Positions 3,313-25,974 of a stretch of DNA of 37,465 nucleotides are shown in pieces (position 1 is the first letter of the stretch; each line of letters begins with the position of its first letter). The notes below the pieces were generated by a model that did no database searches, was not told where the DNA came from, and saw nothing but the letters and a program-made list of their open reading frames with translations. The position numbers and the translations under genes were made by a program. This DNA is from Bacteroidales bacterium (GTDB taxonomy: Bacteria > Bacteroidota > Bacteroidia > Bacteroidales > VadinHA17): positions 1-37,465 of the forward strand of contig PMIL01000041.1 in the NCBI GenBank assembly GCA_003157075.1. Direction: 5' to 3'.

Positions 3313-3384
3313 GGCCCCATAGTTCAATGGATAGAATGGAGGTTTCCTAAACCTTAGATTCAGGTTCGATTCCTGGTGGGGCTA
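3313..3384 (+). tRNA. tRNA-Arg (anticodon CCT)
   Basis: Full cloverleaf of 72 bases. The acceptor stem GGCCCCA pairs with TGGGGCT (first pair G-T) with discriminator A at 3384. The anticodon stem GAGGT/ACCTT encloses a seven-base loop with anticodon CCT at 3346-3348, which reads AGG codons. The T-arm has a canonical TTCGATT loop at 3365-3371. CCA is not encoded. The gene has its own promoter directly upstream. Its 3' end is imperfectly copied at 4571-4588, marking it as a likely integration site. Confidence 0.95.
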
Positions 3385-3385
3385 C
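3368..3385 (+). other. Putative attachment site in tRNA 3' end (left copy)
   Basis: The last 17 bases of tRNA-Arg plus one flanking base match 4571-4588 at 16 of 18 positions in the same orientation. tRNA 3' ends are the usual targets of tyrosine integrases, which leave one intact tRNA and one partial copy. No integrase gene is present, so this is inference from the repeat alone. Confidence 0.5.
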
Positions 3386-3430: not shown

Positions 3431-4345
3431 TTATAGGTTTTTAGAAATGCCTTCTTGTTTGTATAATCTATCTGTATTATAAATTTCCCTTATCATTGCC
3501 TGAACTATTTCATCAAAATCGTCATACTTATAGGCTCTTATTTCATATAAGAACTTTTCAAATGTAAACGGGTAATATATCAAAGCGTGTCGAATGACCT
3601 GTATAGCCTTCCTTTTCTTTTCCTTTCGAAAAAATTTGATATAATCACCTGACAGCTCATCAAGGTATCTTTCTTTGTGTAATATGTTCCATTTTAGGTC
3701 TTTAATCAGGCTGTTTGAGATTCTTAGAATTCTTAACTCTTCTTCAAATTTATATTTCAAAGCCCAAAAATCAATATACTCCGGCAAATCATTTCTTATA
3801 TCAATTAATATTTCAGTATGTTTATCTGGAAATTCTTCGAAGAATTGAGATATCCTTGCATTTTGTTTATTGACTAAGATATCATTCAGAAATTTATCAT
3901 ACAAAATACCGGAAGCGTCAGGGTCTTTAGTTCCTTCAATATGCAATTCGTTATCACCTGAATTATTATCATTCGCTATTTCGTTTTTATATTCTTTTTC
4001 AATTTTATCATCTGCTATACTTCCATTATCAGGTGTTTTCTCAATATCAGTGGAAGTAAAAATATTATTCGCAACATGTTCATTTGTAATATTAGTGTCA
4101 ATAACTACATTACGTTGATCAGTAATATCCGGAATATTTATATATCCGTTCTTCATTAGTTTTTTGTATCCAATGTTTATTGTTCTTCTATGCGCTCCTA
4201 TTTCTTTTGCAAATGATTCCTGTGATATTTTTATTACATCTGGTCTGGTGATAAGCAAATAAAGCATACGCATCTCTGTTAAGGTCAGGTGTTTGCTGAT
4301 TTCCATGAAGTCAGATGTAAATTCGTTAAGATTAATTGTTTTCAT
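3431..4345 (-). CDS. Winged-helix DNA-binding protein, function unknown
   Basis: I do not recognise the full-length family. Residues 18-70 form a clear winged helix-turn-helix: a helix TLTEMRMLYLL, then KISQESFAKEIGAHRRTI as the HTH, then KKLMKNGYI. Residues 80-145 are Asn/Asp/Glu-rich and low in complexity, probably a flexible linker. Residues 150-300 are helical and charged with no known motif. The layout recalls replication-initiator or regulator proteins of small mobile elements, but this is not demonstrated. It is the only gene between two copies of the tRNA-Arg 3' end, and a perfect palindrome lies 5 bases before its ATG, which suggests autoregulation. Confidence 0.75.
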   Translation of the reverse strand: MKTINLNEFTSDFMEISKHLTLTEMRMLYLLITRPDVIKISQESFAKEIGAHRRTINIGYKKLMKNGYINIPDITDQRNVVIDTNITNEHVANNIFTSTDIEKTPDNGSIADDKIEKEYKNEIANDNNSGDNELHIEGTKDPDASGILYDKFLNDILVNKQNARISQFFEEFPDKHTEILIDIRNDLPEYIDFWALKYKFEEELRILRISNSLIKDLKWNILHKERYLDELSGDYIKFFRKEKKRKAIQVIRHALIYYPFTFEKFLYEIRAYKYDDFDEIVQAMIREIYNTDRLYKQEGISKNL

Positions 4346-4798: not shown

Positions 4799-5698
4799 AT
4801 GAGAAAGACATTGCTGATCATAGGATTAGTTGCCATTTTTACCACTGTTTCAGTTGCACAAAGTAAAAATGACACTATAAAACAACTTCAACGCCAGATT
4901 GAGAATCTTGGAAACCTCAATTCCAAATTGTCAAAACAAGTCAATTCAGCTAATTCAAATATAAAAAAAATTGAAGGAAGACTCTTATCTACTTCTGATA
5001 GTGTGGATGTTTTGAAGGAAGAATTAGTTCTTACTAACAAGAATTTACAATCCATGACAACTAAACTTGAATTTCAGATACAGCAATTAAACGAGAAATC
5101 AAATTCTGACTATTCAGCTTTAAGCAAAAGAGTGAGTAATAATAACCTATATTGGATCCTTGCCATTGTATCGATAGCACTATTTGGTATAATTCTTTTC
5201 GGCTGGTTAAGAAGCAGATTAACAATGGTCAAAACTGATCTGTCAGACCAGATAAAAAGCTCATCCGAAGCTATCCGTGAAGAGATAATAAAACTTGACA
5301 ATCAGGTATTCTGGTCACTTGATTTTCAAAAAAAGCTAAACAATACGGAACAAAATGAATCTGAAAATATTGACCATTCGCTTGCTTTAAAAGTTGCAGA
5401 TGAAATTATCCGTATTCAAAAGAATTTAAGCAATATGGACCAGGAAACCAAAGGTGTGAAACAGCTGGAATTTGCAGTTGAACGCATTCAGGATAATTTC
5501 ACGGAAAATGGATATGAGATGGTTGAACTACTCAATAAGCCTTATGACCAGGGGATGAAGCTATCTGCTAAATTTAAAACTGATCCTGCCCTGAAACGGG
5601 GCGAACAGATAATTACCAGGATTATAAAGCCACAGGTAAATTACAATGACGTTATCATTCAGGAAGCACAGGTGGAGGTAAGCGTTGGAGAACAGTAA
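4799..5698 (+). CDS. Membrane-anchored coiled-coil protein with GrpE-like C-terminal domain
   Basis: No named family recognised over its full length. Residues 1-20 are a signal peptide ending SVAQ. Residues 22-112 are a long, presumably periplasmic coiled coil. Residues 117-138 are a membrane helix followed by RSR, putting the rest in the cytoplasm. Residues 196-296 resemble the helical bundle and beta-wing of GrpE, the nucleotide exchange factor of DnaK: a helical pair, then NGYEMVELLNKPYD, then an IITRIIKPxVxYNDVIIQEAQVEVS stretch matching the GrpE wing pattern in spacing and hydrophobicity. No Hsp70 gene is nearby. The GrpE link is my inference from pattern, not a search. It lies just outside the tRNA-anchored segment. 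Confidence 0.7.
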   Translation: MRKTLLIIGLVAIFTTVSVAQSKNDTIKQLQRQIENLGNLNSKLSKQVNSANSNIKKIEGRLLSTSDSVDVLKEELVLTNKNLQSMTTKLEFQIQQLNEKSNSDYSALSKRVSNNNLYWILAIVSIALFGIILFGWLRSRLTMVKTDLSDQIKSSSEAIREEIIKLDNQVFWSLDFQKKLNNTEQNESENIDHSLALKVADEIIRIQKNLSNMDQETKGVKQLEFAVERIQDNFTENGYEMVELLNKPYDQGMKLSAKFKTDPALKRGEQIITRIIKPQVNYNDVIIQEAQVEVSVGEQ

Positions 5699-5767: not shown

Positions 5768-6091
5768 TTATTTTTCCCCCGGAGCCCGGTAAGTGACAGA
5801 TTTTTTCGATGCAGCATCAATATCCTCAACGGAAAGCAGAACGGTAGTAGAAATTGCCACTAATCCAGCTGAATTAACTCTCAATCCAACTGCTGCTGCA
5901 GAGATATCATCCGGAAGCTCGCAGGTAATGTAAGCATCATGTTCACCGAAAGCATAATAGAATGATTCCAGCTTACCCCCTAATCCTGTCAGCATTTTCT
6001 GGACCTCTATCTTTCTTTTTGTACCGCCATCCGCAATTAATCCCTTAACACCATTTGCATTGTAACATGCCTTTATGAGATACTTTTTCAT
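5768..6091 (-). CDS. GYD domain protein
   Basis: A 107-residue protein of the GYD family (PF08734), recognisable by MKKYLIKACYNANGVKGL, GGTKRKIEVQKM, LGGKLESFYYAFGEHDAY and the AAAVGLRVNSAG stretch. These are small ferredoxin-like (dimeric alpha/beta barrel) proteins of unknown biochemical role. It is the last gene of a minus-strand run that starts at the metallo-beta-lactamase, 146 bases after the GyrI/VOC fusion, so co-transcription is possible but not certain. Confidence 0.88.
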   Translation of the reverse strand: MKKYLIKACYNANGVKGLIADGGTKRKIEVQKMLTGLGGKLESFYYAFGEHDAYITCELPDDISAAAVGLRVNSAGLVAISTTVLLSVEDIDAASKKSVTYRAPGEK

Positions 6092-10207: not shown

Positions 10208-13200
10208 TTATACATGATAATCTTCCGGATGATAATTCTTCTGCAGCTCTTCGAGTTTCCGTTTACCATAGGTGAGACGGGTTATAACGACAAAAAGTAC
10301 AGGAACCATAAAAATGCCAATAAAAGTTGCGGCAAGCATTCCTCCCAAAACTGTAAAACCTATAGTCTGCCTGGCGACAGCACCCGCACCTGTAGCAAAA
10401 ATCAGAGGCGATATTCCGAAGACAAATGCGAGTGAGGTCATCAGGATTGGCCTCAATCTCAATTGTATTGCCTCAAGTGTTGCACTTATTATTTCCATGC
10501 CGCTGTCGACACGATTTTTAGCAAATTCAACAATCAATATTGCATTCTTCGCTGCTAGTCCAATAAGAGTTATTAATCCAATCTGAGCATAAACATTATC
10601 GCTTATTCTGGGTACAAGTGTCAGAGTAAAAATTGCGCCAAAAGCTCCTAATGGAACTGCCAGGAGGATAGAGAAAGGGACTGACCAGCTTTCATATAAG
10701 GCAGTAAGAAAAAGAAATACAAATAGAATTGAGATGGCAAAGATTAAAGTTGACTTTGACCCTGCTTCTATTTCTTCATGGCTTAAGCCGGAAAATTCAT
10801 ATCCGTATCCGGCAGGCAAAACTGATGCTGCAGTTTCCCTGAGAGCCTCAATAGCTTCCCCGCTGCTGTATCCTTTGGCAGCATCCCCGTCAAATTCGGT
10901 AGAGCGGTATAAATTAAAGTGAGAGATAAGCGGTGAACTTTCTATGATCTGATAACTGACAAAAGTATTCAGCGGTATCATATTGCCCGTGTTGTTGCGT
11001 ACATAGTATTTATCAATTGCTGTTATTTTATCCCTGTATATTGTATCAGCCTGAGCCATTACCCTGAAATTTCGGCCATAAATAGTAAAATCATTTATAT
11101 ATATACTTCCCATGTATGTCTGAAGGGCATTAAAAACATCGGACAATCGTACTCCAAGTTTCTTGCATTTTTCCCTATCTACAGTAATTTTATATCCGGG
11201 AGTGTTCGCTGTGAAAAATGTGAAGGCGCTGCCGATCTCAGGACGTTTGTTCGCAGCTATCATGAAATTCCTGACAACATTTTGAAATCCTTTAATATCA
11301 TCATTGCTCTCACGCTGCTCGAGGATAAAACTGAATCCACCTGTACTTCCAAGTCCCGGAATAGCCGGCGGAGCTATAACTATAATCCTGGCCTGGGTTA
11401 TCGCTGAAAACCTTCTGTTAAGATCAGTAATTATTCCTTCTAGCTGTTCTTGTTTGGAAGTTCTTTCATCCCATGGTTTTAACTGGCAAAAAATGGTTGC
11501 ACTGTTTGATTTTGTTGAAAATGTAATAACATTAAGACCTGCAAGAGCAGCATAGTGACCAACCCCATGCACCTCATCAAGGGTTTTCATTACCTGATGC
11601 AAAACATCTACAGTTCGGGCAGTAGATGAGGCTTCGGGCAATTCGAAAGTGATATATAATCGGCCATTATCCTCAGTTGGAATAAAACTTGTAGGTTTGT
11701 TTTTGAAAAGGAAAATAGTTGCAACTACAAACAGAATTAAAAGTATAACAACATATCTGGCGTAATTGATAACCTTTTTTACGCTTGAAGAATATGTATT
11801 GAGACTCTTATCAAATATCTTATTAAAAAAAATAAAAAACTTATTTAATAATCCCTGCCTGGATTCTGTTTTAGGAACCAGCAGTAGCGAGCTCAGTGCC
11901 GGAGTCAGAGTTAGTGCAACAAAAGCTGAAAGCAGCACGGAAATTGCAATGGTTATGGCAAATTGCTGGTAGAGTTTCCCCACAATTCCGGGAATAAATC
12001 CTACCGGAACAAATACTGCAGCAAGTATCAGGGCTATTGCTACAACAGGTCCAGAGATATCCTGCATTGCCTTAAACGCTGCGTCCTTTGCTGTAAGATG
12101 TTTATCATCGATATAATGCTGTATTGCTTCTACAACGATTATAGCATCATCGACAACAATTCCGATTGCCATCACAAGACCAAAAAGAGTTAAGGTATTT
12201 ATTGTAAAGCCCAGCGGACCAAAGAACATAAAAGTTCCGATAATGGAGACAGGGATAGCCAGTATAGGGATGACTGTAGCTCGCCAGCTCTGTAAAAAAA
12301 TAAAAACTACAAGGACCACAAGCAACAGTGCAATTGTTAAGGTCTTAATTACCTCCTGAATGGAAACTTTCACGACGGAAACAGCTTCGAATGGAACATT
12401 GTAAGCAAGGTCCGGGGGAAATGATTTGCTCAATCTTGCCATCTCGGTATAGACTCCATTGGCTGTCTCCATAGCGTTGCTTCCCGGAAGCTGGAATACC
12501 AGCACAAACGATGAGGGTCTGCCATCAACAAATGAACCTCCGGAATAATTGAACTTTCCTAATTCAACCCTTGCAACATCTTTAAGATAAACTAGAGATC
12601 CATTTGCTGGGTTTGTCTTTACAATGATCTCGCCAAAAGCCTTTTCAGAAGTGAGCCTTCCCTCTACAAAAGCTGTATATTCAAAAGGTTGGTCTTTGGC
12701 CTGAGGTGTTGATCCAACAATTCCTGCTGCCACCTGTACGTTTTGTTCCTGCACTGCCTGGATGACGTCTCCCGGGGTAAGGCTCAGGTGAGCCATCTTA
12801 TCGGGGTTTAACCAGATCCTCATTCCAAAATCATCAGCTCTTGTAAAAATATCGCCGACCCCTTTTACCCTGAGCAATGCATCTCTTACAAAAATATTGG
12901 TGTAGTTATCGATAAATTTAATTCCATGTGTGCTTTTAGGTGAATAAATAGCTACGAGCATCAGAATACTGGGCGATCGTTTTCTTACCGTAATTCCTAA
13001 ATTTCTTACATCAGCCGGAATGTTTGGTTCTGCTGAGTTTACCCTGTTTTCAACATCGAGAGCTGCAATATCGATATTTGTCCCGATATCGAAGGTAACA
13101 TTCATGCTCATATTACCACTGCTGGTACTATTTGACTGCATATAAGACATCCCGGGGACTCCATTTACCTGTGACTCAATGGGGGTTGCAACGGTTTGCT

Positions 13201-13375
13201 CTACGGTCTGGGCATCGGCACCAATATAATTTGCGGAAACTTGTACTACAGGTGGTGTAATATCGGGGTATTGGCTGACAGGCAGACTTACTATTGATAC
13301 TATTCCCAGAATAATAATTATCAGGGAAATTACAATGGCAGTATTGGGTCTTTTTATAAAGAGATTGGCAATCAT
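10208..13375 (-). CDS. RND (HAE1/AcrB-type) efflux pump
   Basis: The inner-membrane proton/drug antiporter of a tripartite efflux system. It has 1055 residues and two similar halves with six membrane helices each, as in AcrB. The proton-relay acidic pair is D409-D410 in TM4 (AIGIVVDDAIIVVEA), and the TM10 Lys lies in IGLAAKNAILIVEFAK. The N-terminus MIANLFIKRPNTAIVI and QYPDITPP are typical of the HAE1 subfamily, arguing for drugs or amphiphiles rather than metals. It is third in the operon, 23 bases after the adaptor gene. Confidence 0.96.
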   Translation of the reverse strand: MIANLFIKRPNTAIVISLIIIILGIVSIVSLPVSQYPDITPPVVQVSANYIGADAQTVEQTVATPIESQVNGVPGMSYMQSNSTSSGNMSMNVTFDIGTNIDIAALDVENRVNSAEPNIPADVRNLGITVRKRSPSILMLVAIYSPKSTHGIKFIDNYTNIFVRDALLRVKGVGDIFTRADDFGMRIWLNPDKMAHLSLTPGDVIQAVQEQNVQVAAGIVGSTPQAKDQPFEYTAFVEGRLTSEKAFGEIIVKTNPANGSLVYLKDVARVELGKFNYSGGSFVDGRPSSFVLVFQLPGSNAMETANGVYTEMARLSKSFPPDLAYNVPFEAVSVVKVSIQEVIKTLTIALLLVVLVVFIFLQSWRATVIPILAIPVSIIGTFMFFGPLGFTINTLTLFGLVMAIGIVVDDAIIVVEAIQHYIDDKHLTAKDAAFKAMQDISGPVVAIALILAAVFVPVGFIPGIVGKLYQQFAITIAISVLLSAFVALTLTPALSSLLLVPKTESRQGLLNKFFIFFNKIFDKSLNTYSSSVKKVINYARYVVILLILFVVATIFLFKNKPTSFIPTEDNGRLYITFELPEASSTARTVDVLHQVMKTLDEVHGVGHYAALAGLNVITFSTKSNSATIFCQLKPWDERTSKQEQLEGIITDLNRRFSAITQARIIVIAPPAIPGLGSTGGFSFILEQRESNDDIKGFQNVVRNFMIAANKRPEIGSAFTFFTANTPGYKITVDREKCKKLGVRLSDVFNALQTYMGSIYINDFTIYGRNFRVMAQADTIYRDKITAIDKYYVRNNTGNMIPLNTFVSYQIIESSPLISHFNLYRSTEFDGDAAKGYSSGEAIEALRETAASVLPAGYGYEFSGLSHEEIEAGSKSTLIFAISILFVFLFLTALYESWSVPFSILLAVPLGAFGAIFTLTLVPRISDNVYAQIGLITLIGLAAKNAILIVEFAKNRVDSGMEIISATLEAIQLRLRPILMTSLAFVFGISPLIFATGAGAVARQTIGFTVLGGMLAATFIGIFMVPVLFVVITRLTYGKRKLEELQKNYHPEDYHV

Positions 13376-13398
13376 GACCTGTGATTTGCTTTTAATAA

Positions 13399-14535
13399 CT
13401 ATCGCTTAACTATATCTTGTTTCGCTGAGGGACCACCAACCTGAACTACAGATCCATTATGTACCTTTTGCAGTCCGTCAAGAACAATTTTATCGCCAGG
13501 GTTTAATCCCTGCTTTACAACTATATATTCACCAAGGTTTGAACCTGGTTCAATTTTGATTTGTTTTACTTTCATACTGTCAATTACATATACAAAGTAT
13601 TCTCCCATCTGCTCTACTACAGCTTTGTAAGGTATAACAGTCTGGGTGCCTGAGTTTCCGCTTAGGACTTTAACTTTGCAGTTCATACCTGTTCTTAAGC
13701 TTTTCTCATGATTAGGAAAAATAAGTCTTACTTTTATAGTTCCTGTCTGGTGATCAACAGCGCGGTCAATCACACTTAACTGTCCACTTGAAGTATACTC
13801 AGAATTATCAGGCAGAAGAATTCTGAATGTTGAATCTGTCTTGCTTCCCTCCTTTTTCTTCAGATCAATAAACCATGGAAGCGATTTTTCATTAATTATA
13901 AAATCGACTCCGATAGGATCGTCAGATGAAATTGTATTTAACAAAGTCTGTCCCTGATTTATAAATGCACCTGTTTTAACCTGTGATAATCCTATTGTGC
14001 CGGAAAAAGGAGCCCGGATTATTGAATAATTAAAATCGGTCTCTGCATTTGAACGGGCAGCATTCGCGGACAACAGTTGCATTTTAGTATTTTGCAGATT
14101 GGTCGTTGCATCATCATAGGTTTGTTTAGCAATTGCATTTTGATCATTCAATTTTGAATACCTTTCAGCATCGCGTTGTGCCTTTTGAAGATTTGATTCC
14201 GAGATATCGGCATTTGCTTTGGCCTGCTCAAAAGCAGCCTGATATTTTCTTCTGTCGATTTCGTATAGTTTCTCACCTTTAGCTACCTGTGACCCTTCGG
14301 TAAAATAAATGCCCGTAATGAACCCGCTTACCTGACTATGAAGCTCAACTTCATTTAACGCCACAACAGTTCCCGGGTATGAATCATAAAAACTTACTTT
14401 TTGAGATTGAACAGTATATTCTCCTACCGGAACCGGTCCGGCAGTCTGATTCTGCTTACTTACCTTCTTACATGATTGTATCGATATTATAAGACAGCAA
14501 ATCAGTAGCAGATTAAATATTTTCTTGTTAGTCAT
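13399..14535 (-). CDS. RND periplasmic adaptor (membrane fusion protein)
   Basis: 378-residue AcrA-type adaptor joining the RND pump to the outer-membrane channel. It is a lipoprotein with lipobox SIQSC (Cys22). The order is: split lipoyl domain (ELHSQVSGFITGIYFTEGSQVAKGE and FNYSIIRAPFSGTIGLSQVKTGAFI) around an alpha-helical hairpin rich in Ala, Asn and Gln, then the beta-barrel and membrane-proximal domains. It lies 17 bases after the outer-membrane factor gene and 23 before the pump. Confidence 0.94.
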   Translation of the reverse strand: MTNKKIFNLLLICCLIISIQSCKKVSKQNQTAGPVPVGEYTVQSQKVSFYDSYPGTVVALNEVELHSQVSGFITGIYFTEGSQVAKGEKLYEIDRRKYQAAFEQAKANADISESNLQKAQRDAERYSKLNDQNAIAKQTYDDATTNLQNTKMQLLSANAARSNAETDFNYSIIRAPFSGTIGLSQVKTGAFINQGQTLLNTISSDDPIGVDFIINEKSLPWFIDLKKKEGSKTDSTFRILLPDNSEYTSSGQLSVIDRAVDHQTGTIKVRLIFPNHEKSLRTGMNCKVKVLSGNSGTQTVIPYKAVVEQMGEYFVYVIDSMKVKQIKIEPGSNLGEYIVVKQGLNPGDKIVLDGLQKVHNGSVVQVGGPSAKQDIVKR

Positions 14536-14552
14536 GTCAATATATCGTAAAA

Positions 14553-15944
14553 TTAGTAGTCGACTGATATTTCTCCCAATGCACGTTTCACATCAATATT
14601 ACTGAACATCAGCATGAACAAGGCATTAAGATTATTAATGCGCGCTGACATAAGATCCGTTTCAGATACAATGACTTCCAGATAAGTTTTGATGCCCTGA
14701 TTGTATTGTAATTTCACAGTATTATAAACGTCCTGTGCAATTTCAATATTCTGCTGAGTCATCCGGTAAGCCGCCAGATCGCTTTTATATGAAGCCATTG
14801 CACTGACAAATTGAGTATTCATTTCGTTTCGTGTGTTCAGGGTGTCAAGCGTCAGTCTTTCATATTGCATTTTTGATTTCTTAATATTCTGAATCCTTTT
14901 GGTACCCTCAAAAATCGGGAATGATAGAGAAAGGCCGATTGTTGAGTTTGGATAAGAGCTTTTAAAAAGCTGATTGTAAACATCATTCTGATAAATTATA
15001 TTATAATTAGCAAATGCAGAAAGCGAAGGAAGAAAACTCATACGGTAATAATCGGTTTTGGATTTCTGGAGTTTAAGGTTTGTCTGAAGCAATTGATATT
15101 CAATGCGATTATAGACATTTATATTTTGAAGAGTATCAATGATAGCATCCTTCTCCATCGAAAGGATATTTGAACTCAGATTCAGGGGTTTTTCGTTGGG
15201 GTATCCCATCACCTGCTTCAGGTAACTGATTTTTGATTTTATAGATTCCTCCGCATTCTTTTTCTGTGACAAGGCATTATTCAGAGAAATAGTGGCTCTT
15301 TTATAGTCTATCACATCACTTGTCCCACTCTGATAAAGAGCATAAGCATCTTTCAGACTCTTTGACAACCTGTCAATTTCTTCTTTAATTATGTTCAATT
15401 GTTCTCTGGAAAGCAGGACATCATAGAACGCCTTGTTTATTTCAACTACAATTTCTATCAATGCGCTCCTTGAAGTCTGGGAAGCCTGGAGGCGATAATT
15501 TCCTGCTGTTCTTCCTGCGATATAAACATCGTTATTAAAAATATTCTGGGTCGCAGAAAACTGAATGTTTGAATTATATAATACTCCGTTAGGAATAAGA
15601 ATCTTAGGTCCGGTGGGATTGGAAATATCAGGAAACAGGAAAACCGGCTGTTTAAGATAATGCTGTAATCCAGCACTGGCATTAACTTGCGGCAACCAGT
15701 CAGCCAATGCAATTCTGATATTCTGTCTTGCTATTCCCTCATCGAGATTCAATTGTTTCACCAACGGCTGATTATGCCTGGCATATTTAATGCAATCATT
15801 TATGGTTGCACTATCGGATATTATATTTTGCTGATTTTGGGCCCTTAAACCGGAACTGAAACAGAGAAAGGTAATCCATATAATCAAGACCCCATGTTTA
15901 CTTTCAGACAATTTTCTTTTTATTATATTATTCAAATACATCAT
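14553..15944 (-). CDS. TolC-type outer membrane efflux protein
   Basis: 463 residues with an N-terminal signal (GVLIIWITFLCFSSGLRAQ) and the duplicated OEP fold: two repeats of long amphipathic helices with strands, for example INDCIKYARHNQPLVKQ at the start and YNQGIKTYLEVIVSETDLMSARI near the end. It forms the outer-membrane channel for the pump encoded downstream. Unusually for textbook operons, but commonly in Bacteroidota, the channel gene comes first. Two adjacent ATGs (15944 and 15941) could serve as start. No regulator gene is adjacent. Confidence 0.93.
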   Translation of the reverse strand: MMYLNNIIKRKLSESKHGVLIIWITFLCFSSGLRAQNQQNIISDSATINDCIKYARHNQPLVKQLNLDEGIARQNIRIALADWLPQVNASAGLQHYLKQPVFLFPDISNPTGPKILIPNGVLYNSNIQFSATQNIFNNDVYIAGRTAGNYRLQASQTSRSALIEIVVEINKAFYDVLLSREQLNIIKEEIDRLSKSLKDAYALYQSGTSDVIDYKRATISLNNALSQKKNAEESIKSKISYLKQVMGYPNEKPLNLSSNILSMEKDAIIDTLQNINVYNRIEYQLLQTNLKLQKSKTDYYRMSFLPSLSAFANYNIIYQNDVYNQLFKSSYPNSTIGLSLSFPIFEGTKRIQNIKKSKMQYERLTLDTLNTRNEMNTQFVSAMASYKSDLAAYRMTQQNIEIAQDVYNTVKLQYNQGIKTYLEVIVSETDLMSARINNLNALFMLMFSNIDVKRALGEISVDY

Positions 15945-16017
15945 AGACTTCCTTCAAAAAAAATAACCGGAACAATTAAGATTCCGGAGTTAAACAATTA
16001 TAATAATATTTTAAATT

Positions 16018-16039
16018 CGTTTAAAAGAGCGTTTAAAAG
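16018..16039. promoter_or_regulatory. Direct repeat upstream of the RND operon (candidate operator)
   Basis: CGTTTAAAAG occurs twice, at 16018-16027 and 16030-16039, a 12-base period of about one helical turn, some 75-95 bases upstream of the operon's first start codon. Such spacing fits a regulator that binds one face of the helix. No regulator gene is adjacent to support it. Confidence 0.35.
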
Positions 16040-16157
16040 TCATAACAAAGCTCTATTGATTTTGTTCGTCACATTTTTGAACAGATGGAAGGAATGGTCA
16101 CTTGTACCTCAGAAGGAGTGGTCTTCGGATGCAACATTAATTGATAAACAGGATAAA

Positions 16158-16616
16158 TTATTTGTCGGTTTTCTGAATTTTTTTTAAAATCTGAATAATT
16201 AATTTATTCTGATTTTCAATATGCATTAATATTGTTTCAATTTCCACCTCAGCTTTTTTGTTTATTGCGAAATCTTCTTCAGCAAGGATTTCTGAATGCC
16301 TTGACTGTATATTTTGTCCGATCATAATTAGTGGCATAAGGAAAATCTGTATCATATTTGATATGAAAAGCCAGAGAACAAAAGCAGGAAACGGATCAAA
16401 TCTTAATTGTGCCGGAGCCAGGGTATTCCATGTTAACCATACAAAGGTCCAGCCAAAAATGATTATAAAAAAACCCATGCTCCCTACATGCGTTGTAATC
16501 CAGATAGCAACTTTATCAATCTTAGACAGCTTTGACCTGTGCTGAACGTTTACATTCCGAAAAGGTTTGAAATTCTTTCTTATTTCTTCGAGCGAAGGGA
16601 GTTTCTGTTGTTTCAT
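16158..16616 (-). CDS. DUF1003 membrane protein
   Basis: 152 residues with two hydrophobic segments (GFFIIIFGWTFVWLTWN and FPAFVLWLFISNMIQIFLMPLIMI) and the DUF1003 signatures FDPFPAF and MIGQNIQSRHSEILAEEDFAINKKAEVEIE. The C-terminal region is a predicted cytoplasmic coiled coil. The function of the family is unknown. It follows the serine hydrolase gene by 34 bases and may be co-transcribed with it. Confidence 0.9.
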   Translation of the reverse strand: MKQQKLPSLEEIRKNFKPFRNVNVQHRSKLSKIDKVAIWITTHVGSMGFFIIIFGWTFVWLTWNTLAPAQLRFDPFPAFVLWLFISNMIQIFLMPLIMIGQNIQSRHSEILAEEDFAINKKAEVEIETILMHIENQNKLIIQILKKIQKTDK

Positions 16617-16650
16617 ATCCGGATATTTTTTTGTTTGTCTGACTTATAAT

Positions 16651-17706
16651 TTAATATTCCAGGGCTCTCAGAATATAGTCCCAGAGTACTTGTTCCAGTA
16701 TGTTCTGACCATCATTCCATGCAGTACATACTACAACAGCATTATGATTGGGTATTACCCAGATGAATTGCTCGCCCCTTCCGGAAGCAAAATTGATACC
16801 TTCCGCTTTTACAGATGCCATAGCGGAACCATAACGCCACCACTGGTATCCATAATCACACCAATAGTTCATTTGGTTATACGGTATCGTCGATTCTTCA
16901 ATCCAGTTCTTCGAAATAACCTGCTCATTTTTCCAAAGTCCTTTTTTTAAATACAATTGGCCAAACTTGATCATGTCAACAGGTCGAAGGCTTAAACCCC
17001 ATCCTCCGATTGAGACTCCATCAGGCCGGTTATCCCATGTCCAGTCAGTAATTCCGAGTTTTGAGAAAAGATTATCCCTGGCAAAATCTCTTGCCGGTTC
17101 CCCTGTTGCCTTAGTAATTATACCTGAAAGTAAATTTGATACCCCGCTGTTATAAGTCACAAATGTTCCCGGCTTATGCGCCATTGGACGGTCTAAAACA
17201 TATTTTATCCAGTCATCGGTCTGGATCAGCCTAATTACATCATTAGCAGGATCATTATATGACGTTGTCCACTCATCCCAGGTAAAACCGGAAGTCATTG
17301 TAAGCAAATCCCTTATAGTTATCTTTGCCTTTAATGAATCAAAATTGGCAATAGTATTTTTATATTCGGGAAAGAAATTCAGCATGGGGATATTTACGCT
17401 ATCCAACAATCCTTTATCCAGACAAATTCCAATCAGAGCTGAAGTAAAACTTTTGGTTACCGAGTACAATGCATGCTTGGTTTCTCGTGTAAACCCATTG
17501 AAATATTTCTCAAAAATTATTGAATCATCTTTAGCAATTATAAGGCTATGAACTTCTCCATAATGATGATTTTCAACCTGGGAAACAATTTCATTAAAAA
17601 TTTCTGTCTGAGGAGATACCGGACTTTTGTCTTTTCTGCAGGAAGCAGAGATAATGACAATCCAGGTAATTAAAACTGCCAGTTCTATTCTGTCAAGCAC
17701 TTTCAT
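16651..17706 (-). CDS. Serine hydrolase lipoprotein, class C beta-lactamase/PBP4* family
   Basis: 351 residues. The lipobox IISASC (Cys23) predicts a lipoprotein. The catalytic SxxK is S82-V-T-K85 (ALYSVTKSFTSALIG) and the YxN motif is Y185-N-S (TFVTYNSGVSNLL), as in the beta-lactamase (PF00144) family of esterases, D-peptidases and AmpC enzymes. Most members outside true AmpC are esterases or peptidases, so a resistance role should not be assumed. Its start is only 2 bases past the stop of the small membrane protein gene, indicating one transcript. Confidence 0.9.
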   Translation of the reverse strand: MKVLDRIELAVLITWIVIISASCRKDKSPVSPQTEIFNEIVSQVENHHYGEVHSLIIAKDDSIIFEKYFNGFTRETKHALYSVTKSFTSALIGICLDKGLLDSVNIPMLNFFPEYKNTIANFDSLKAKITIRDLLTMTSGFTWDEWTTSYNDPANDVIRLIQTDDWIKYVLDRPMAHKPGTFVTYNSGVSNLLSGIITKATGEPARDFARDNLFSKLGITDWTWDNRPDGVSIGGWGLSLRPVDMIKFGQLYLKKGLWKNEQVISKNWIEESTIPYNQMNYWCDYGYQWWRYGSAMASVKAEGINFASGRGEQFIWVIPNHNAVVVCTAWNDGQNILEQVLWDYILRALEY

Positions 17707-18187: not shown

Positions 18188-19867
18188 TTAGTCCCAGTTG
18201 AAAATTTCAATTTTATTATTTAGTTTCCATTTTTTTGGATAAGCCGTTTCCATCCAGTCAAGGGGTTCACCAACAGGCAGATTCTGTGATGCAAGGTTAA
18301 AGCACTCTTTAATTGCGGTTTTTTGTTCGGGACCAATTGCTTCAGGTTGTGCTGAGATAAAAAGTGGTGTGCCGCTTTTTGCCACAAGTTCCATCCATTG
18401 TTTGTTTTTCTCCCAGGGGACTTTCGTTGTTAATCCGACACAATCTCCGTCTGCTGCATAAAAAATGTCATGCTGTATCGTCCGGAATCCTAAAGTATTC
18501 ACTCCCATTTTCCGGGTCCTGGCCCACTCGTTACCGGAGGTATCATCGCCTATCCGGTTCAGTTCAAATAATCCTGCTGACAAATGACTGAATGTATTAC
18601 ATCCAATGATATATGTCTCTCCAGCAGCTTCCCTGATATTCTCATATAAATTCAAAACTATTTCTGCGTTTGTTTTTGAGTTATCATTCATAATCCAGTT
18701 ACTCTGACTCAATGCACCATTTTTCAGCATCTCAAAACCCCATTTACCAAAAATATCGAATGAGGTGTAGTCAAATTTCACCAGTTCATAGCCCCAGGCT
18801 TTATAGAGTTCAAAATAGCTTTTGATTCTTTCCAGATTTTCAGGGATTGATGGGTCAAGTATAGGATTGTTTTTTCCTCTGCCTTTTATTAATGGGAGAA
18901 TAAGGGAAGCGGGATCTTTATGGCTCCCGCATAACGGTCGCACCCAGATGCCCGGTCGCATTCCTGTCTCTTTTATTTTACCGGCCAGCTTGCCCATATC
19001 AGGAAACTTTTTGTTAGGAGTATTCATATTATCTCCCCAGGAACTATCATCCGGCAAAGAGGGAGAAGTCTGAAACCATCCTGCATCAATTACAGAAAAG
19101 GGACGATTTGTAATATCCCTGGCCATGGGACTCATCAAGTCTGTATGTTCAAGGATCAATTTTTCAGAATTATTGCCATATGTAAAATACCAGTCATTTA
19201 TACCATAAACCGGCAGTTTGGGCAAATGAGACTCATTGCACATTTTTTTTGCGAATTTTCTTGCAGTCTGAAAAGGAGTCTCGTTAATATCACTTCTGAT
19301 GGTTACTATCTCAGCGGCGTTTAGTTGTCTGTCATTTAATTGAACGCCATCCCCGCCTGATCGCAAATCAAGTGTTAGACTTAATTTTTCATTGCCAATC
19401 ATCCAGAAGCAGAATGATTTAGCCCCTGTTTTTACACCAAAACCATTAGTGTTTTTAGCATTATACTCTAAAAAATACCAGGGAAGAATTTCACTTTCTC
19501 TTGCTTTATGCCAGGATACATCTCCATAAGTACGTTCCCATTGGTCGTTTAATACCGATGATGTACTTTTAACAGGCGTTTTCCAATGAAGGCTTATTGA
19601 ACTAAGTTTCACTTTTGGAGCTTTTATTCCAATGGCAACAGAGTTCTCCGTATTCTTCAGGCTAACAATCAAATCTTTATAGATCCATGATTCTTCTCCT
19701 TTGCTCTTCTGAAGGATCACACTTTGATTGTTAATAATTGCTGAAGCTTCATCGGGCATATTAATCAACTGAGTCACTGGTTCATTGACAGATCCAGTAA
19801 ATTTATCACTTATCAATGCACTAGCAAGTGCAGCACCAGTGGTTCTGATAAAATTTCTGCGATTCAT
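18188..19867 (-). CDS. GH36/melibiase-like glycoside hydrolase (clan GH-D)
   Basis: 559 residues. A Tat-type signal (MNRRNFIRTTGAALASA) predicts export folded. A beta-sandwich N-terminal region is followed by a TIM barrel with the clan GH-D pattern: NDWYFTYG, VIDAGW, GMRPGIWVRPL (compare GLWVEPE in GH36), the nucleophile D366 in VKFDYTSFD and the acid/base D441 in RIGDDTSGNEWAR. Family members are mainly alpha-galactosidases or alpha-N-acetylgalactosaminidases; the exact substrate here is not clear. The start is 17 bases after the GH125 stop, so the pair is co-transcribed. Confidence 0.82.
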   Translation of the reverse strand: MNRRNFIRTTGAALASALISDKFTGSVNEPVTQLINMPDEASAIINNQSVILQKSKGEESWIYKDLIVSLKNTENSVAIGIKAPKVKLSSISLHWKTPVKSTSSVLNDQWERTYGDVSWHKARESEILPWYFLEYNAKNTNGFGVKTGAKSFCFWMIGNEKLSLTLDLRSGGDGVQLNDRQLNAAEIVTIRSDINETPFQTARKFAKKMCNESHLPKLPVYGINDWYFTYGNNSEKLILEHTDLMSPMARDITNRPFSVIDAGWFQTSPSLPDDSSWGDNMNTPNKKFPDMGKLAGKIKETGMRPGIWVRPLCGSHKDPASLILPLIKGRGKNNPILDPSIPENLERIKSYFELYKAWGYELVKFDYTSFDIFGKWGFEMLKNGALSQSNWIMNDNSKTNAEIVLNLYENIREAAGETYIIGCNTFSHLSAGLFELNRIGDDTSGNEWARTRKMGVNTLGFRTIQHDIFYAADGDCVGLTTKVPWEKNKQWMELVAKSGTPLFISAQPEAIGPEQKTAIKECFNLASQNLPVGEPLDWMETAYPKKWKLNNKIEIFNWD

Positions 19868-19884
19868 CTGCGTTTCTCATTATT

Positions 19885-21321
19885 TTAACCAAGTTGAATT
19901 TTTAATATCTCCGGTTTTTCATGATATAGCTTCAATATCAGTTCTCCAAAAATAGTGTTTGCCCAGGCAAACCAACTTCGTGAAAAATCCTGAGGGTTAT
20001 CGACATTATAGGATTCGTGAATAAATCCGGTACCTGCATGAGTTTTTTTCAATATAGTAAGGCAATTTATGATTTCTTTATTGTCAGTACTTGTAATTGC
20101 CTGTATTACCAATCCAAGCGGCCAAATCTTCTTTCCTCCTACATGGGGCCCACCAATCCCCTTGCCGAATTTACCTTCATTAAACCATGGATTAGCATGG
20201 CTTAAAGAAAATTTGCGGGTATTCATATAAATGGGGTCGGTTGAGTGACAGTAACCAACATATGGGAGCGATAATAAATTAGGCACATTGGCATCATCCA
20301 TAAACAGGGCATTTCCAAAACCATCAATTTCGATCGGGTAAATTTTACCTGCTGTTGGATGCTGAAGGACCGCATAATTTTTTAATACCAGGTCAATTTC
20401 ATTGGCAAAATCGGTACATACTTTTTCCATCTCTTTATTGGATAATGCAGTTCCGTATATTTCTCCTAATTGACGCAGTGAAACAACAGCAAACATATTT
20501 GAAGAAATTAAAAACGGAAATATGGTGGAATCGTCAGAAGGCCGGAACATTGAATGAATAAGCCCTATTTTTTTTGTGGGATTGCCATACCCGCTTCCGA
20601 ACTGGCTATCAGTAGGATTCAATGCTAATCTTTGAAAATGATAAGGTCCATCGTTTTTCATCCGTTGTTGTTCTCTGAAAGTTTGAAGAATAAGTTTCAT
20701 CGCTTCCTGCCAGGTATGATCAAAAGAAGACGAGTCGCGGGTATTTTTCCAATATCCGTAAGCCAGGCGAATAACATAGCAAAGTGAATCTACCTCCCAT
20801 TTATGTTCATGAACACCCGGTTTCATTGTTGTGACATCATCTTTCCATTCGCTTATGCGGGCAGGATCATTATAATATGCATTTGCATAAGGATCAAGCA
20901 ATACAAATTCAGTTTGTTTTGCTATTACTCCTTTTAATAGTTTTTTCAGTTTTTCATCTTTGTTAGCCAGCGGAATGTATGGCCACACCTGTGCAGAGGA
21001 ATCCCGCAACCACATAGCGTCTATATCTCCTGTAATAACGTATGTAAAGGGGTTGCCGTTTTTTTCTGTGTGTGTAACCGTAGTATCAAGAGTGTTTGGG
21101 AAACAATTCTCAAACATCCAAGCCAGTTCTTCATCGGCAATGGCTTTTTTCACCTCAACAATTGTTTCTTCAACCGCGCTGCTCATAAAACGCCGTTTAC
21201 CGGGTTCGGGACGTTTTGAAGGATAAGATCCGCCGGCAGAACCTCCAAGTGCAGGGAAGCCCGGTAATAATCCAGCTGAAGCAATCCCAACGGTCTTTAT
21301 AAATTTTCTCCTGTCTGTCAT
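19885..21321 (-). CDS. GH125 exo-alpha-1,6-mannosidase
   Basis: 478 residues with a Tat-like signal (MTDRRKFIKTVGIASAG). The GH125 (formerly DUF1237) (alpha/alpha)6 barrel is marked by YVITGDIDAMWLRDSSAQVW (about 94-113), HEHKWEVDSLCYVIRLAYGYW (171-191), NPTDSQFGSGYGNP and the C-terminal HESYNVDNPQDFSRSWFAWAN. Characterised members remove non-reducing alpha-1,6-mannose. Sharing an export signal type and a 17-base junction with the GH36-like enzyme suggests joint action on a glycan containing alpha-mannose and alpha-galactose-type linkages (inference). Confidence 0.92.
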   Translation of the reverse strand: MTDRRKFIKTVGIASAGLLPGFPALGGSAGGSYPSKRPEPGKRRFMSSAVEETIVEVKKAIADEELAWMFENCFPNTLDTTVTHTEKNGNPFTYVITGDIDAMWLRDSSAQVWPYIPLANKDEKLKKLLKGVIAKQTEFVLLDPYANAYYNDPARISEWKDDVTTMKPGVHEHKWEVDSLCYVIRLAYGYWKNTRDSSSFDHTWQEAMKLILQTFREQQRMKNDGPYHFQRLALNPTDSQFGSGYGNPTKKIGLIHSMFRPSDDSTIFPFLISSNMFAVVSLRQLGEIYGTALSNKEMEKVCTDFANEIDLVLKNYAVLQHPTAGKIYPIEIDGFGNALFMDDANVPNLLSLPYVGYCHSTDPIYMNTRKFSLSHANPWFNEGKFGKGIGGPHVGGKKIWPLGLVIQAITSTDNKEIINCLTILKKTHAGTGFIHESYNVDNPQDFSRSWFAWANTIFGELILKLYHEKPEILKIQLG

Positions 21322-21549
21322 ATTAAATTAAAATTACCGAATGAGTTTACATAAAATTAAACTAATAATTCTATTAAAGATACTCAGATTCTAATATATG
21401 AGTCTTTCTATTCACTAATTGCAGATCACCGCAATTTAAGGAACAGGACTGACCACTTTTCGGTATAGAAAAAGGTTACAGATTGGAAGCATTAATATTT
21501 GAAACCTCCATAAACAAAGAAATTAAACCATTTTCTAAGTTTTTTTGTC

Positions 21550-21972
21550 TTAGACTTCCAATTCCGTTCTCACATGAGAAGCAATTATTTCATGACATCC
21601 ATCAAAGGCCTGCCATACTGAATTGCACCAGCTTTTTATCTTTAAATCGCGCTGTACTCCCGGTGGTGTTTCCATGACTTCTAAAATCGAAATTTCTCCT
21701 CTTTGTTCCGGCAGTTTAAAAGCCGGCCATACTTTTTTATTTTTTGACATTTGTATATGTGCCATTTGGACCTGCTTCCCGGAATAGTTCTTTTCAATGA
21801 ACAGATAAAGTCCTGCCAGAGCAAATGTAATTGCAATGGGTTTTGTTTTATCATCAGCATGTTGTGCAGTATAAGCATCAACAACATGCTGATGAATAAA
21901 ATATATCTTATCGGGATGATCGAGCGTATAATATGCCAGTTCATTATACAGATCCTGGTCAGATTTCTTCAT
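21550..21972 (-). CDS. DUF5946 family protein
   Basis: 140 residues, soluble, matching the DUF5946 pattern as I remember it: LYNELAYYTLDHPDKIYFIHQHVVDAYTAQHADDKTKPI, ALAGLYLFIEKNYSGKQVQ and the C-terminal WCNSVWQAF. Function unknown. It sits inside the carbohydrate gene run (52 bases after DUF3863, 228 before GH125) without an obvious link to sugar metabolism. Confidence 0.75.
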   Translation of the reverse strand: MKKSDQDLYNELAYYTLDHPDKIYFIHQHVVDAYTAQHADDKTKPIAITFALAGLYLFIEKNYSGKQVQMAHIQMSKNKKVWPAFKLPEQRGEISILEVMETPPGVQRDLKIKSWCNSVWQAFDGCHEIIASHVRTELEV

Positions 21973-22024
21973 TTCTCTGGCTTTACTTTATTCTATAATT
22001 TAATAATTTCCTAAAATTATCAGG

Positions 22025-23386
22025 CTATTCCTGCTTTTTAAAAAGCATCGGATAATATTCTCCGATTAATGATTTTGACTTATCAGAAAGTTTATCAATC
22101 TGAATCGGTTTATCTTGCGGCCTGGTTTGTTTTTGATTAATTTCTCCCATAAGACTCCAGTTTCTTGTACTGCCTGATACCGGTTCTTTAACTCCTATGT
22201 CGTACCGTGTAAAGTCTATAACCATTTCATCCCCAAATTTCAAATTCTTCAGTAATGCCAATCTGAATTTTTTATTCATAAACCATCTGATCACTTTATC
22301 AGAGTCAGAACCGCCTATTCCTGATCCTTTCTCTTCAAACTGATAATTAAAGCTATTGGATTTATATTGTTCTCTCCAGATCATTCCAAATTCTCCCTGT
22401 GTAATGAATTTAACATCAGGCCATCGTCTTTTAATTTCACTTAGCCATAAAGTAAGTCCGTCGAGTTCAATCGGAAGAGAAACTTCCCAGCAATTTGTGA
22501 CCCATGCAAAGCCATTAAGAACAAAACCCTTATCAAAATGAATGGCTGTAGTATATAACATCTCTTTACACCCTGTATCCAAACCATATTTCCCGAGAGT
22601 CTCTATTGGGCCAACGCCCATCCTGCTGTTAAAGCCTTCCGAGAAACCCTGACGTCTGGCTGACAAGAAATCCATGGTCCAGCCATCCAGGTTCACACAA
22701 TCAATAAAATCTGTGTGTCCTTGGGCGGGTTTACAAAAATGTTCTTTTGACGGATAGTAAGGATATGAAGGAGCTCCATCCCCATCTTGATTGTCAATCG
22801 CAAACTGACTCCACACATTGCCCTGGCATACATGGATTCCTTCCTGTTCTGAAAGAAATTCCTGGTTTTTTGATGATAAAAACCCTGCGACAATACTCAG
22901 CGGACGATAATTATTGCCAACAATAGATGATACCTTGGCTAACCCATCATGCAAATCATTGTTAACCTGCTCAGTAGAATTATAGGCGTTCGCAAAATAT
23001 GCTCCGGGAATAAATGTAATTTCGTCTCCGAATTTTTTATGATACCCTACCACAAGATCCCTTATTTGCCTGTAATTTGAAGTTGTATCATGTAAAGCCA
23101 GCCAGCTTAATGCCCAGGTTATCCTGGCTCCCGGAAAACCTCTGGAAATAGCTTCCCTGAACTTAACCACTCGCAAAGGTGTATGGAGGCTTCTCTCGTT
23201 TTCTCCTGCATTCTTATTCCTGGAAACCTCAATCTGGTTAACGCGGATTACTGCATTAAATGTCAGAAAACGATTTCCGGTCAACCCGGTCTGTTTCTGG
23301 TCTTTATTCCCTTCTCTATATATAAAACCGGTTAATGAAAAAACCAGCAAGACTAAAAACAATAACCTAGTATACTTATAAACCAT
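22025..23386 (-). CDS. DUF3863-like exported protein
   Basis: 453 residues with an N-terminal membrane/signal segment (residues 5-24). The body resembles the DUF3863/DUF3864 proteins of Bacteroides: FNAVIRVNQIEVSRNKNAGEN, GARITWALSWLALHD, DEITFIPGAYFANAYNSTEQV and ISIVAGFLSS-like stretches. The first half has the look of a NodB-like TIM-barrel deacetylase, but I do not see the full catalytic set. It begins 3 bases after the stop of the six-hairpin protein, so the two are translationally coupled and likely act on the same glycan. Confidence 0.7.
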   Translation of the reverse strand: MVYKYTRLLFLVLLVFSLTGFIYREGNKDQKQTGLTGNRFLTFNAVIRVNQIEVSRNKNAGENERSLHTPLRVVKFREAISRGFPGARITWALSWLALHDTTSNYRQIRDLVVGYHKKFGDEITFIPGAYFANAYNSTEQVNNDLHDGLAKVSSIVGNNYRPLSIVAGFLSSKNQEFLSEQEGIHVCQGNVWSQFAIDNQDGDGAPSYPYYPSKEHFCKPAQGHTDFIDCVNLDGWTMDFLSARRQGFSEGFNSRMGVGPIETLGKYGLDTGCKEMLYTTAIHFDKGFVLNGFAWVTNCWEVSLPIELDGLTLWLSEIKRRWPDVKFITQGEFGMIWREQYKSNSFNYQFEEKGSGIGGSDSDKVIRWFMNKKFRLALLKNLKFGDEMVIDFTRYDIGVKEPVSGSTRNWSLMGEINQKQTRPQDKPIQIDKLSDKSKSLIGEYYPMLFKKQE

Positions 23387-23389
23387 AAT

Positions 23390-25927: not shown

Positions 25928-25966
25928 AGTTAATTTTTTAATTCTTAATGTAGAAGGGACTACTAA

Positions 25967-25974
25967 CAAAAGTA
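25967..25974 (-). promoter_or_regulatory. Candidate -7 element for the glycosidase operon
   Basis: On the minus strand TACTTTTG matches TAnnTTTG, 40 bases before the ATG at 25927. A TTTG complement (CAAA) lies at 26000-26003, but the spacing is 25 rather than 19-21 bases, so this is a weak call. Confidence 0.35.

Follow-up and report, generated by a model that had tools for sequence, protein, structure and literature searches.

Bacterial GrpE is known as a soluble cytoplasmic factor without a membrane helix. Several described systems resemble the locus analyzed here. In Escherichia coli, the C-terminal domain and the helix bundle of GrpE bind the nucleotide-binding domain of DnaK (PMC10825016), and its coiled coil, together with the N-terminal tails, extends to the substrate-binding domain of DnaK (PMC12915176). 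An HSP70-GrpE theme occurs in the GAP1-N2 GTPase conflict systems, described mainly from actinobacteria and firmicutes; Hsp70 and GrpE genes lie together in these predicted conflict loci, with GTPase and FNIII-repeat proteins (PMC7159879). CoCoNuT Type III systems carry the Hsp70-like protein CnuD and added kinase/ATPase modules (PMC11090510). DnaJ-DnaK-dependent phage protection was reported for bNACHT25 (PMC12169576). The available parts of the last three papers describe no membrane-tethered GrpE. A search of the open-licence literature, whose coverage is incomplete and leaves most subscription papers outside, found no description of a tethered GrpE-like protein or of the operon reported below among the best-ranked results (the first 5 to 15 rows of long lists).

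The window, which is the whole 37,465-nt stretch of DNA analyzed in this study, carries a gene with an ATG start for a GrpE-like membrane protein of 299 aa (4799..5698, forward strand, as are all features of this gene given below). The protein is probably a membrane-anchored, divergent GrpE-type exchange factor that serves a dedicated Hsp70, and the system around it may act in conflict or stress. The evidence is good both for its homology to GrpE and for the linkage to Hsp70. Nucleotide exchange is the likely function, and the protein may in addition dimerise, sense the periplasm, and take part in defence. Like GrpE (PF01025) and mitochondrial GrpEL1, it has a long helix followed by a helix pair and a C-terminal beta-wing, and in its relatives the gene is likewise linked to Hsp70. 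Unlike in GrpE, a signal-peptide-like start, a coiled coil, and a membrane helix replace the soluble N-terminal region. The N-terminal end of the family would lie across the membrane, whereas the tails of E. coli GrpE bind the DnaK substrate-binding domain (PMC12915176). The HEA motif and the basic last-strand residues of GrpE are replaced in the family (joint alignment of six family rows and eight Bacteroidota GrpE rows), and the Pfam score is below the cut-off. Because three canonical features (Pfam cut-off, solubility, and motif) were not found, we classed the protein as a GrpE-like variant and not as GrpE.

Compared with the GAP1-N2 systems, the loci described here are from Bacteroidota and contain a kinase-AAA+ protein, a TerB-like protein, and a membrane-tethered GrpE-like domain. 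Pfam listed no GTPase or FNIII family for the five core proteins of the L012 operon (for the kinase-AAA+ protein, among the best 25 of 28 matches). An Hsp70-like protein, coiled coils, a kinase, an AAA+ ATPase, and proximity to BREX or other restriction systems are shared with CoCoNuT Type III as described in PMC11090510. No McrC or HEPN family was listed by Pfam for the L012 operon proteins, nor for ten flanking proteins at E<=1e-4. Distinct from CoCoNuT Type III, the Hsp70 here retains its ATPase motifs and has an exchange-factor-like gene of its own as partner.

Layout, assumed topology, and predicted fold of the 299-aa protein

Hydropathy analysis located an N-terminal hydrophobic segment at residues 1-23 and one strong segment at residues 114-141. 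The former holds the signal-peptide-like start (approximately residues 1-20, 4799..4858), with a putative cleavage site placed by eye. The best 21 residues of the latter, 117-137 (5147..5209), define the membrane helix. Between them lies a heptad-rich segment (residues 22-113, 4862..5137), which is helical in the AF2 model. In the segment before the membrane helix, 72% of the heptad a/d positions were hydrophobic compared with 14% elsewhere, and none of 1000 composition shuffles reached this level.

Heptad and charge counts were carried out on the 16 homologues having a segment before the membrane helix. In 10 homologues, no more than 10 of 1000 shuffles matched the heptad pattern; in the other six the pattern was weak (more than 10 of 1000). 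The charge step across the membrane helix fitted the assumed topology in 11 of the 16, was level in four, the window protein included, and was opposite in one. Hydropathy of the N-terminal start was above the threshold in 6/9 homologue rows; in the operon-borne L079 homologue, the gene as called starts at the membrane helix. The coil is presumably periplasmic and the C-terminal domain cytoplasmic.

The window protein was modeled with AF2 as a monomer from a 17-row alignment (mean pLDDT 81, pTM 0.34). The model contains a long helix (residues 2-183), two helices (194-212 and 220-236), and six strands between residues 239 and 297. Beyond the membrane helix, the long helix continues through residues 138-183 (5210..5347); this stretch aligns with the long helix of GrpE and is presumably cytoplasmic. 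In the model and in the structure matches, the two following helices (5378..5506) correspond to the pair of the GrpE four-helix bundle, and the strands form a beta-wing (residues 239-297, 5513..5689).

In a Foldseek search against the PDB, the first 13 rows were all GrpE or GrpEL1 (E 8e-6 to 4.7e-3), and row 14 was unrelated (E 0.25). These rows include chains from E. coli, Geobacillus, Thermus, M. tuberculosis, and human. TM-scores to GrpE chains were modest (0.35-0.50 by target length), and the whole-chain rmsd was 16 to 26 A because the long helices bend differently. The long helix of GrpE aligns from about residues 115-153 onward, that is, from the membrane helix or its continuation. In the VIA comparison, the first six rows were GrpE or GrpEL1 with Z-scores of 10.3 to 9.2, although a Z below about 13 for helical models may reflect a common arrangement only. 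Chain 9blt_B superposed on residues 191-299 of the window protein at 4.0 A over 106 residues. Thermus GrpE (Z 6.1) ranked below the unrelated flotillin (Z 8.2, residues 1-239), a row that was set aside since it does not include the wing.

The original prediction had read the N-terminal half as a signal peptide, a coiled coil, and one membrane helix, and hydropathy and the heptad shuffles supported this layout. It had also proposed a possible GrpE-like domain in the C-terminal part, with the beta-wing in a predicted structure as the check. The wing is present in the AF2 model and the leading Foldseek rows support the proposal. The C-terminal motifs that it quoted are contained in the translation of ORF 4799-5698 as NGYEMVELLNKPYD and RIIKPQVNYNDVIIQEAQVEVS.

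Likeness to GrpE at the sequence level

When residues 191-299 were searched against Pfam, GrpE was the best family, with E 0.01 and 16 bits against a cut-off of 25.8. When the whole 299-aa protein was searched, GrpE was twelfth of 23 weak matches (E 0.47, 10.5 bits). Coiled-coil families (YlqD, Exonuc_VII_L, EssA, TIGR04211, and others) matched mostly the N-terminal half below their cut-offs and were rejected, as were the PADLOC matches LmuB, two JetC models, and LeoBC, which lay mainly over the coiled-coil part (LeoBC, residues 51-222). When the whole genome was searched with PF01025 at E<=10, the GrpE-like gene was not among the listed matches. Pfam GrpE was also not listed for two operon-borne homologues, L012 (E<=0.5) and L079 (E<=1), and NCBIfam gave no GrpE match for the C-terminal domain. 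A phmmer search of the domain against PDB sequences returned repeat-protein noise and weak unrelated matches but no GrpE, a single sequence being too weak a query. The case for GrpE would be only suggestive if it were built on one sequence.

Profile comparison was performed using hhalign with nine C-terminal domains of the family and 20 canonical GrpE proteins. This set represented 20 of 25 GrpE loci; the contig-edge fragment L050 and four loci missed by the regular expression were out. The two profiles aligned collinearly over 91 columns with a score of 28.7, a probability of 34%, and a pairwise E of 4e-4; the best of 200 column shuffles scored 20.7 and the reversed profile 13.2. A 17-domain family profile was then run against 414 entries, in which five small ORFs were present twice. 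The 19 family members came first, followed by small GrpE-like ORFs and canonical GrpE. Nine of the 20 canonical GrpE proteins, which had been picked by Pfam and not by the profile, were found at E<0.01. Three weak genome matches of the nine-row profile (L090, L091, and L094) were canonical GrpE as well (Pfam E 7.4e-45 to 1e-42). The L092 and L093 proteins (494 and 845 aa), which are by length not GrpE, scored within the range of canonical GrpE; hence, the family profile alone is not specific at that level. The replacement of the HEA motif and the last-strand basic residues makes binding to DnaK doubtful and suggests specialisation for a dedicated Hsp70.

Homologues and their Hsp70 operon

Nineteen strong homologues were collected, the window's included. 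The weak matches L008 and L009, which end before the GrpE-like domain, were dropped, and two weak plasmid matches in Sphingobium and Treponema were left aside. Among 13 distinct weak profile matches, five were small GrpE-like ORFs before Hsp70, three were canonical GrpE, and two (L069/L092 and L072/L093) were neither, judged by ORF length; L071, L073, and L074 were left out.

The neighbours of the homologues, to which the original prediction had pointed as a place to look for Hsp70 genes, bore out the link. The Hsp70 gene is the next gene downstream in 15 of the 19 homologues (L012-L014, L016-L018, and L075-L083), or 15 of the 18 with a visible downstream context, L084 itself lying at a contig end. 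The three homologues without an Hsp70 neighbour, referred to here as orphans, are the window copy, L011 (same genus, 77% identical), and L015.

The Hsp70 of the operon is 833 to 868 aa long (that of L014 is cut by the contig end). Upstream of the GrpE-like gene, 14 of the 15 operons encode a related protein of 486 to 709 aa, which is cut in L075; one of the four such proteins scanned (L013) has a CFI-box-CTERM domain. A kinase-AAA+ protein similar to the L012 fusion is encoded in 13 operons, next after Hsp70 or one or two genes on, and BLAST found a TerB-like protein in nine. In the L012 operon, Pfam matched Hsp70 at 4.9e-61 over residues 9-374, and the kinase-AAA+ protein matched both AAA (4.9e-38) and protein kinase (1.6e-23). 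PF00004 was the best family for its AAA+ domain, and AAA_5 matched too. The TerB-like protein scored 21.1 bits, under the cut-off of 24.4. The fusion of protein kinase and AAA+ ATPase is encoded at L012:11503-13278, and simple HRD and DFG patterns are absent in some members.

DLGTTNS and GGGTFD are kept in all 18 Hsp70s aligned, five distant ones among them. An AF2 model of the L012 Hsp70 (pLDDT 87) matched whole DnaK and BiP structures (best E 1.9e-36), which indicates that this Hsp70 is complete, with an enlarged C-terminal part. One operon (L076:2295-7283) contains two tandem Hsp70 genes; the second, in which the GIDLGTT and D.GGGT patterns are missing, may encode an inactive partner.

The GrpE-like domain also occurs by itself. 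In five further genomes (L085-L089), a protein of 95-120 aa made up almost entirely of the GrpE-like domain is encoded directly before a distant Hsp70 of 824-836 aa. A similar pair of small protein and Hsp70 is carried by a Pseudomonas plasmid (L103:7639-10490; profile E 6.5e-4), where it is annotated as hypothetical protein and Hsp70, and a weaker pair by an Aminobacter plasmid (L104:7654-10538; profile E 3.4e-3), where the small protein is likewise annotated as hypothetical. A 706-841-aa protein precedes the small GrpE-like ORF in L087, L103, and L104. These small proteins beside Hsp70 show that the link between the domain and Hsp70 is independent of the membrane anchor.

On a Haliscomenobacter plasmid, the operon adjoins brxL and pglZ of BREX, and a SIR2-family gene lies about 7 kb upstream of it. 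Ten flanking proteins from eight other operon loci were scanned at E<=1e-4. L081 contributes a type I methyltransferase, L082 a phage integrase, L077 a transposase, and L083 a NACHT protein with a sulfatase-modifying-factor domain matching PDC-S60. Among the remaining six, one had no match, and five are a TPR-protease, an M48 peptidase, a pyruvate:ferredoxin oxidoreductase, a transporter, and a DUF5906 protein. When the L012 operon proteins were compared with listed defence components, only kinase/AAA+ similarity and one weak match were found. The flanking genes give hints of a possible mobile conflict system, and the operon may function in conflict (defence) or stress.

Proposed mechanism and the possible partner of the solitary copy

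In the mechanism we propose, the periplasmic coiled coil and the single membrane helix would run on into the long cytoplasmic helix, which would carry the helix pair and the beta-wing and dock them on the nucleotide-binding domain of an Hsp70. In most relatives, the partner would be the dedicated Hsp70 of about 840 aa from the next gene, usually with a kinase-AAA+ protein in the operon. Hsp70 would be drawn to the inner membrane, where its substrate-binding domain would sit close to the bilayer. Through the tether, the reset of Hsp70, and hence client release, would occur only at this membrane. The periplasmic coil would dimerise and may gate or tune the reset. A GrpE that is tethered, extends into the periplasm, and has its own Hsp70 would represent a novel means of positioning, and perhaps gating, Hsp70 activity. 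The operon is centred on chaperones; one copy lies on a plasmid next to BREX, and others near a restriction methyltransferase or a NACHT protein.

The solitary copy in the window lacks such a partner nearby. A tblastn search (E<=1) with 13 operon proteins from relatives, four Hsp70s among them, found nothing in the window. The window genome, which is 89% complete, has a single PF00012 match (E<=0.01), a 643-aa frame on contig C46, which is not the contig of the window. The remark in the original prediction that no Hsp70 gene is near was therefore correct. One canonical GrpE above the cut-off was found in this genome, on contig C137. Since the 643-aa protein is the only Hsp70 found there, housekeeping DnaK is the likeliest present partner of the window copy.

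A first alternative is that the solitary copy serves housekeeping DnaK as a membrane-local exchange factor beside the normal GrpE of the genome. With the operon Hsp70 as query (E<=0.01), each of the three orphan genomes gave a DnaK-sized match, 34% identical across the nucleotide-binding domain, and two of them also gave a short match within an ORF of about 350 aa. The kinase-AAA+ query (E<=1e-5) matched only ORFs of about 720 aa, over the AAA part. Judged by size and region, the ORFs of about 350 and 720 aa are taken to be MreB and FtsH, respectively. The solitary gene is also maintained, as indicated by its low dN and its conserved positions. Between the window copy and L011, dN was 0.12-0.13 and dS 0.9 for the whole gene, dN 0.066-0.073 and dS >1 for the C-terminal domain, and dN 0.16 and dS 0.71-0.79 for the looser N-terminal part; tyrS, close to the C-terminal domain in this respect, gave a dN of 0.081-0.084. 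Purifying selection on the GrpE-like domain of the window copy is strong. The window copy and L011 each keep all 19 positions that are conserved in 14 operon-borne rows, and L015 keeps 14 of them. Service to DnaK agrees with these observations. However, the wing residues are those of the dedicated family and not those of canonical GrpE, and with the orphan genomes 85 to 92% complete, an Hsp70 may have escaped assembly. Given the specialisation that the replaced residues suggest, we regard service to DnaK by the solitary copy as possible but doubtful. A wider version, in which a previously undescribed Bacteroidota immune or envelope-stress machine uses a GrpE wired to a periplasmic coil to switch a dedicated Hsp70 at the inner membrane with the kinase-AAA+ protein as output, and cells that have lost the machine plug this GrpE into DnaK and thereby place a cytoplasmic Hsp70 under direct control of the envelope, is a tentative and somewhat unlikely picture.

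A second alternative sees the solitary copy as a part of the operon, retained or captured, whose targets in trans would be the Hsp70s of incoming plasmids or phages, with a role as a decoy, an antidote, or a regulator. A midpoint-rooted tree places the three orphans together with 12 operon-borne copies in one group of 15 rows (support 96/97); the order inside this group is poorly resolved and L015 has a long branch. Matches are rare, occurring in 9 of 146 genomes including the window's own, and two of the nine match only outside the GrpE-like domain. A plasmid carries one of the operons next to BREX genes, and a tRNA gene is near the copy in both the window genome and L011. In the window, tRNA-Arg(CCT) is upstream of the GrpE-like gene (3313..3385, forward strand). 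In L011, tRNA-Arg(CCT) is also upstream of the 77% identical copy in the same orientation, and the intervening and outer genes differ. These observations are consistent with a captured piece, but a direct sign of a decoy, antidote, or regulator role was not seen. An insertion at the tRNA end was rejected because a repeat of the last 14 tRNA bases was not found in the window, which also speaks against this alternative. A fresh relic of a broken operon was rejected likewise: the upstream gene, Hsp70, kinase-AAA+, and TerB left no trace by tblastn (E<=1) in the window, L011, L015, and L021. On balance, action in trans is unlikely.

A third alternative is a GrpE-derived fold that has no exchange activity and now serves a membrane complex only as adaptor or assembly factor. 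It would account for the replaced canonical residues, the membrane anchoring, and the solitary gene of three genomes. We consider it improbable, since an Hsp70 gene is linked in 15 of the 18 visible contexts, the 18 aligned Hsp70s keep their ATPase motifs, and the domain exists alone next to Hsp70. Finally, that the likeness to GrpE is a chance product of helices and short strands in an ordinary coiled-coil membrane protein is hardly credible: Pfam GrpE is under its cut-off, is absent for two relatives (L012 and L079), and is equaled by many coiled-coil families for the whole protein, but the structure search, the comparison with shuffled profiles, the finding of canonical GrpE by the profile, and the Hsp70 linkage all contradict it. 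A membrane-anchored GrpE-type exchange factor remains the preferred reading of the gene.

Between the tRNA gene and the GrpE-like gene, the window encodes a 304-aa protein in the opposite orientation (3431-4345), whose helix-turn-helix and PADLOC CARF matches are both weak. In L011, the corresponding interval holds a 716-aa peptidyl-dipeptidase Dcp-like gene. The next gene downstream of the GrpE-like gene in the window is a GYD-domain gene on the opposite strand (5768-6091). Further downstream, an efflux operon (AcrB-type pump, HlyD-like protein, and outer membrane efflux protein) lies beside a gene for a beta-lactamase-family protein (10208-17706). The region 18188-25969 encodes a GH125 alpha-mannosidase, a DUF3863/DUF3864 protein, and two proteins of 559 and 859 aa without a Pfam match at 1e-6.
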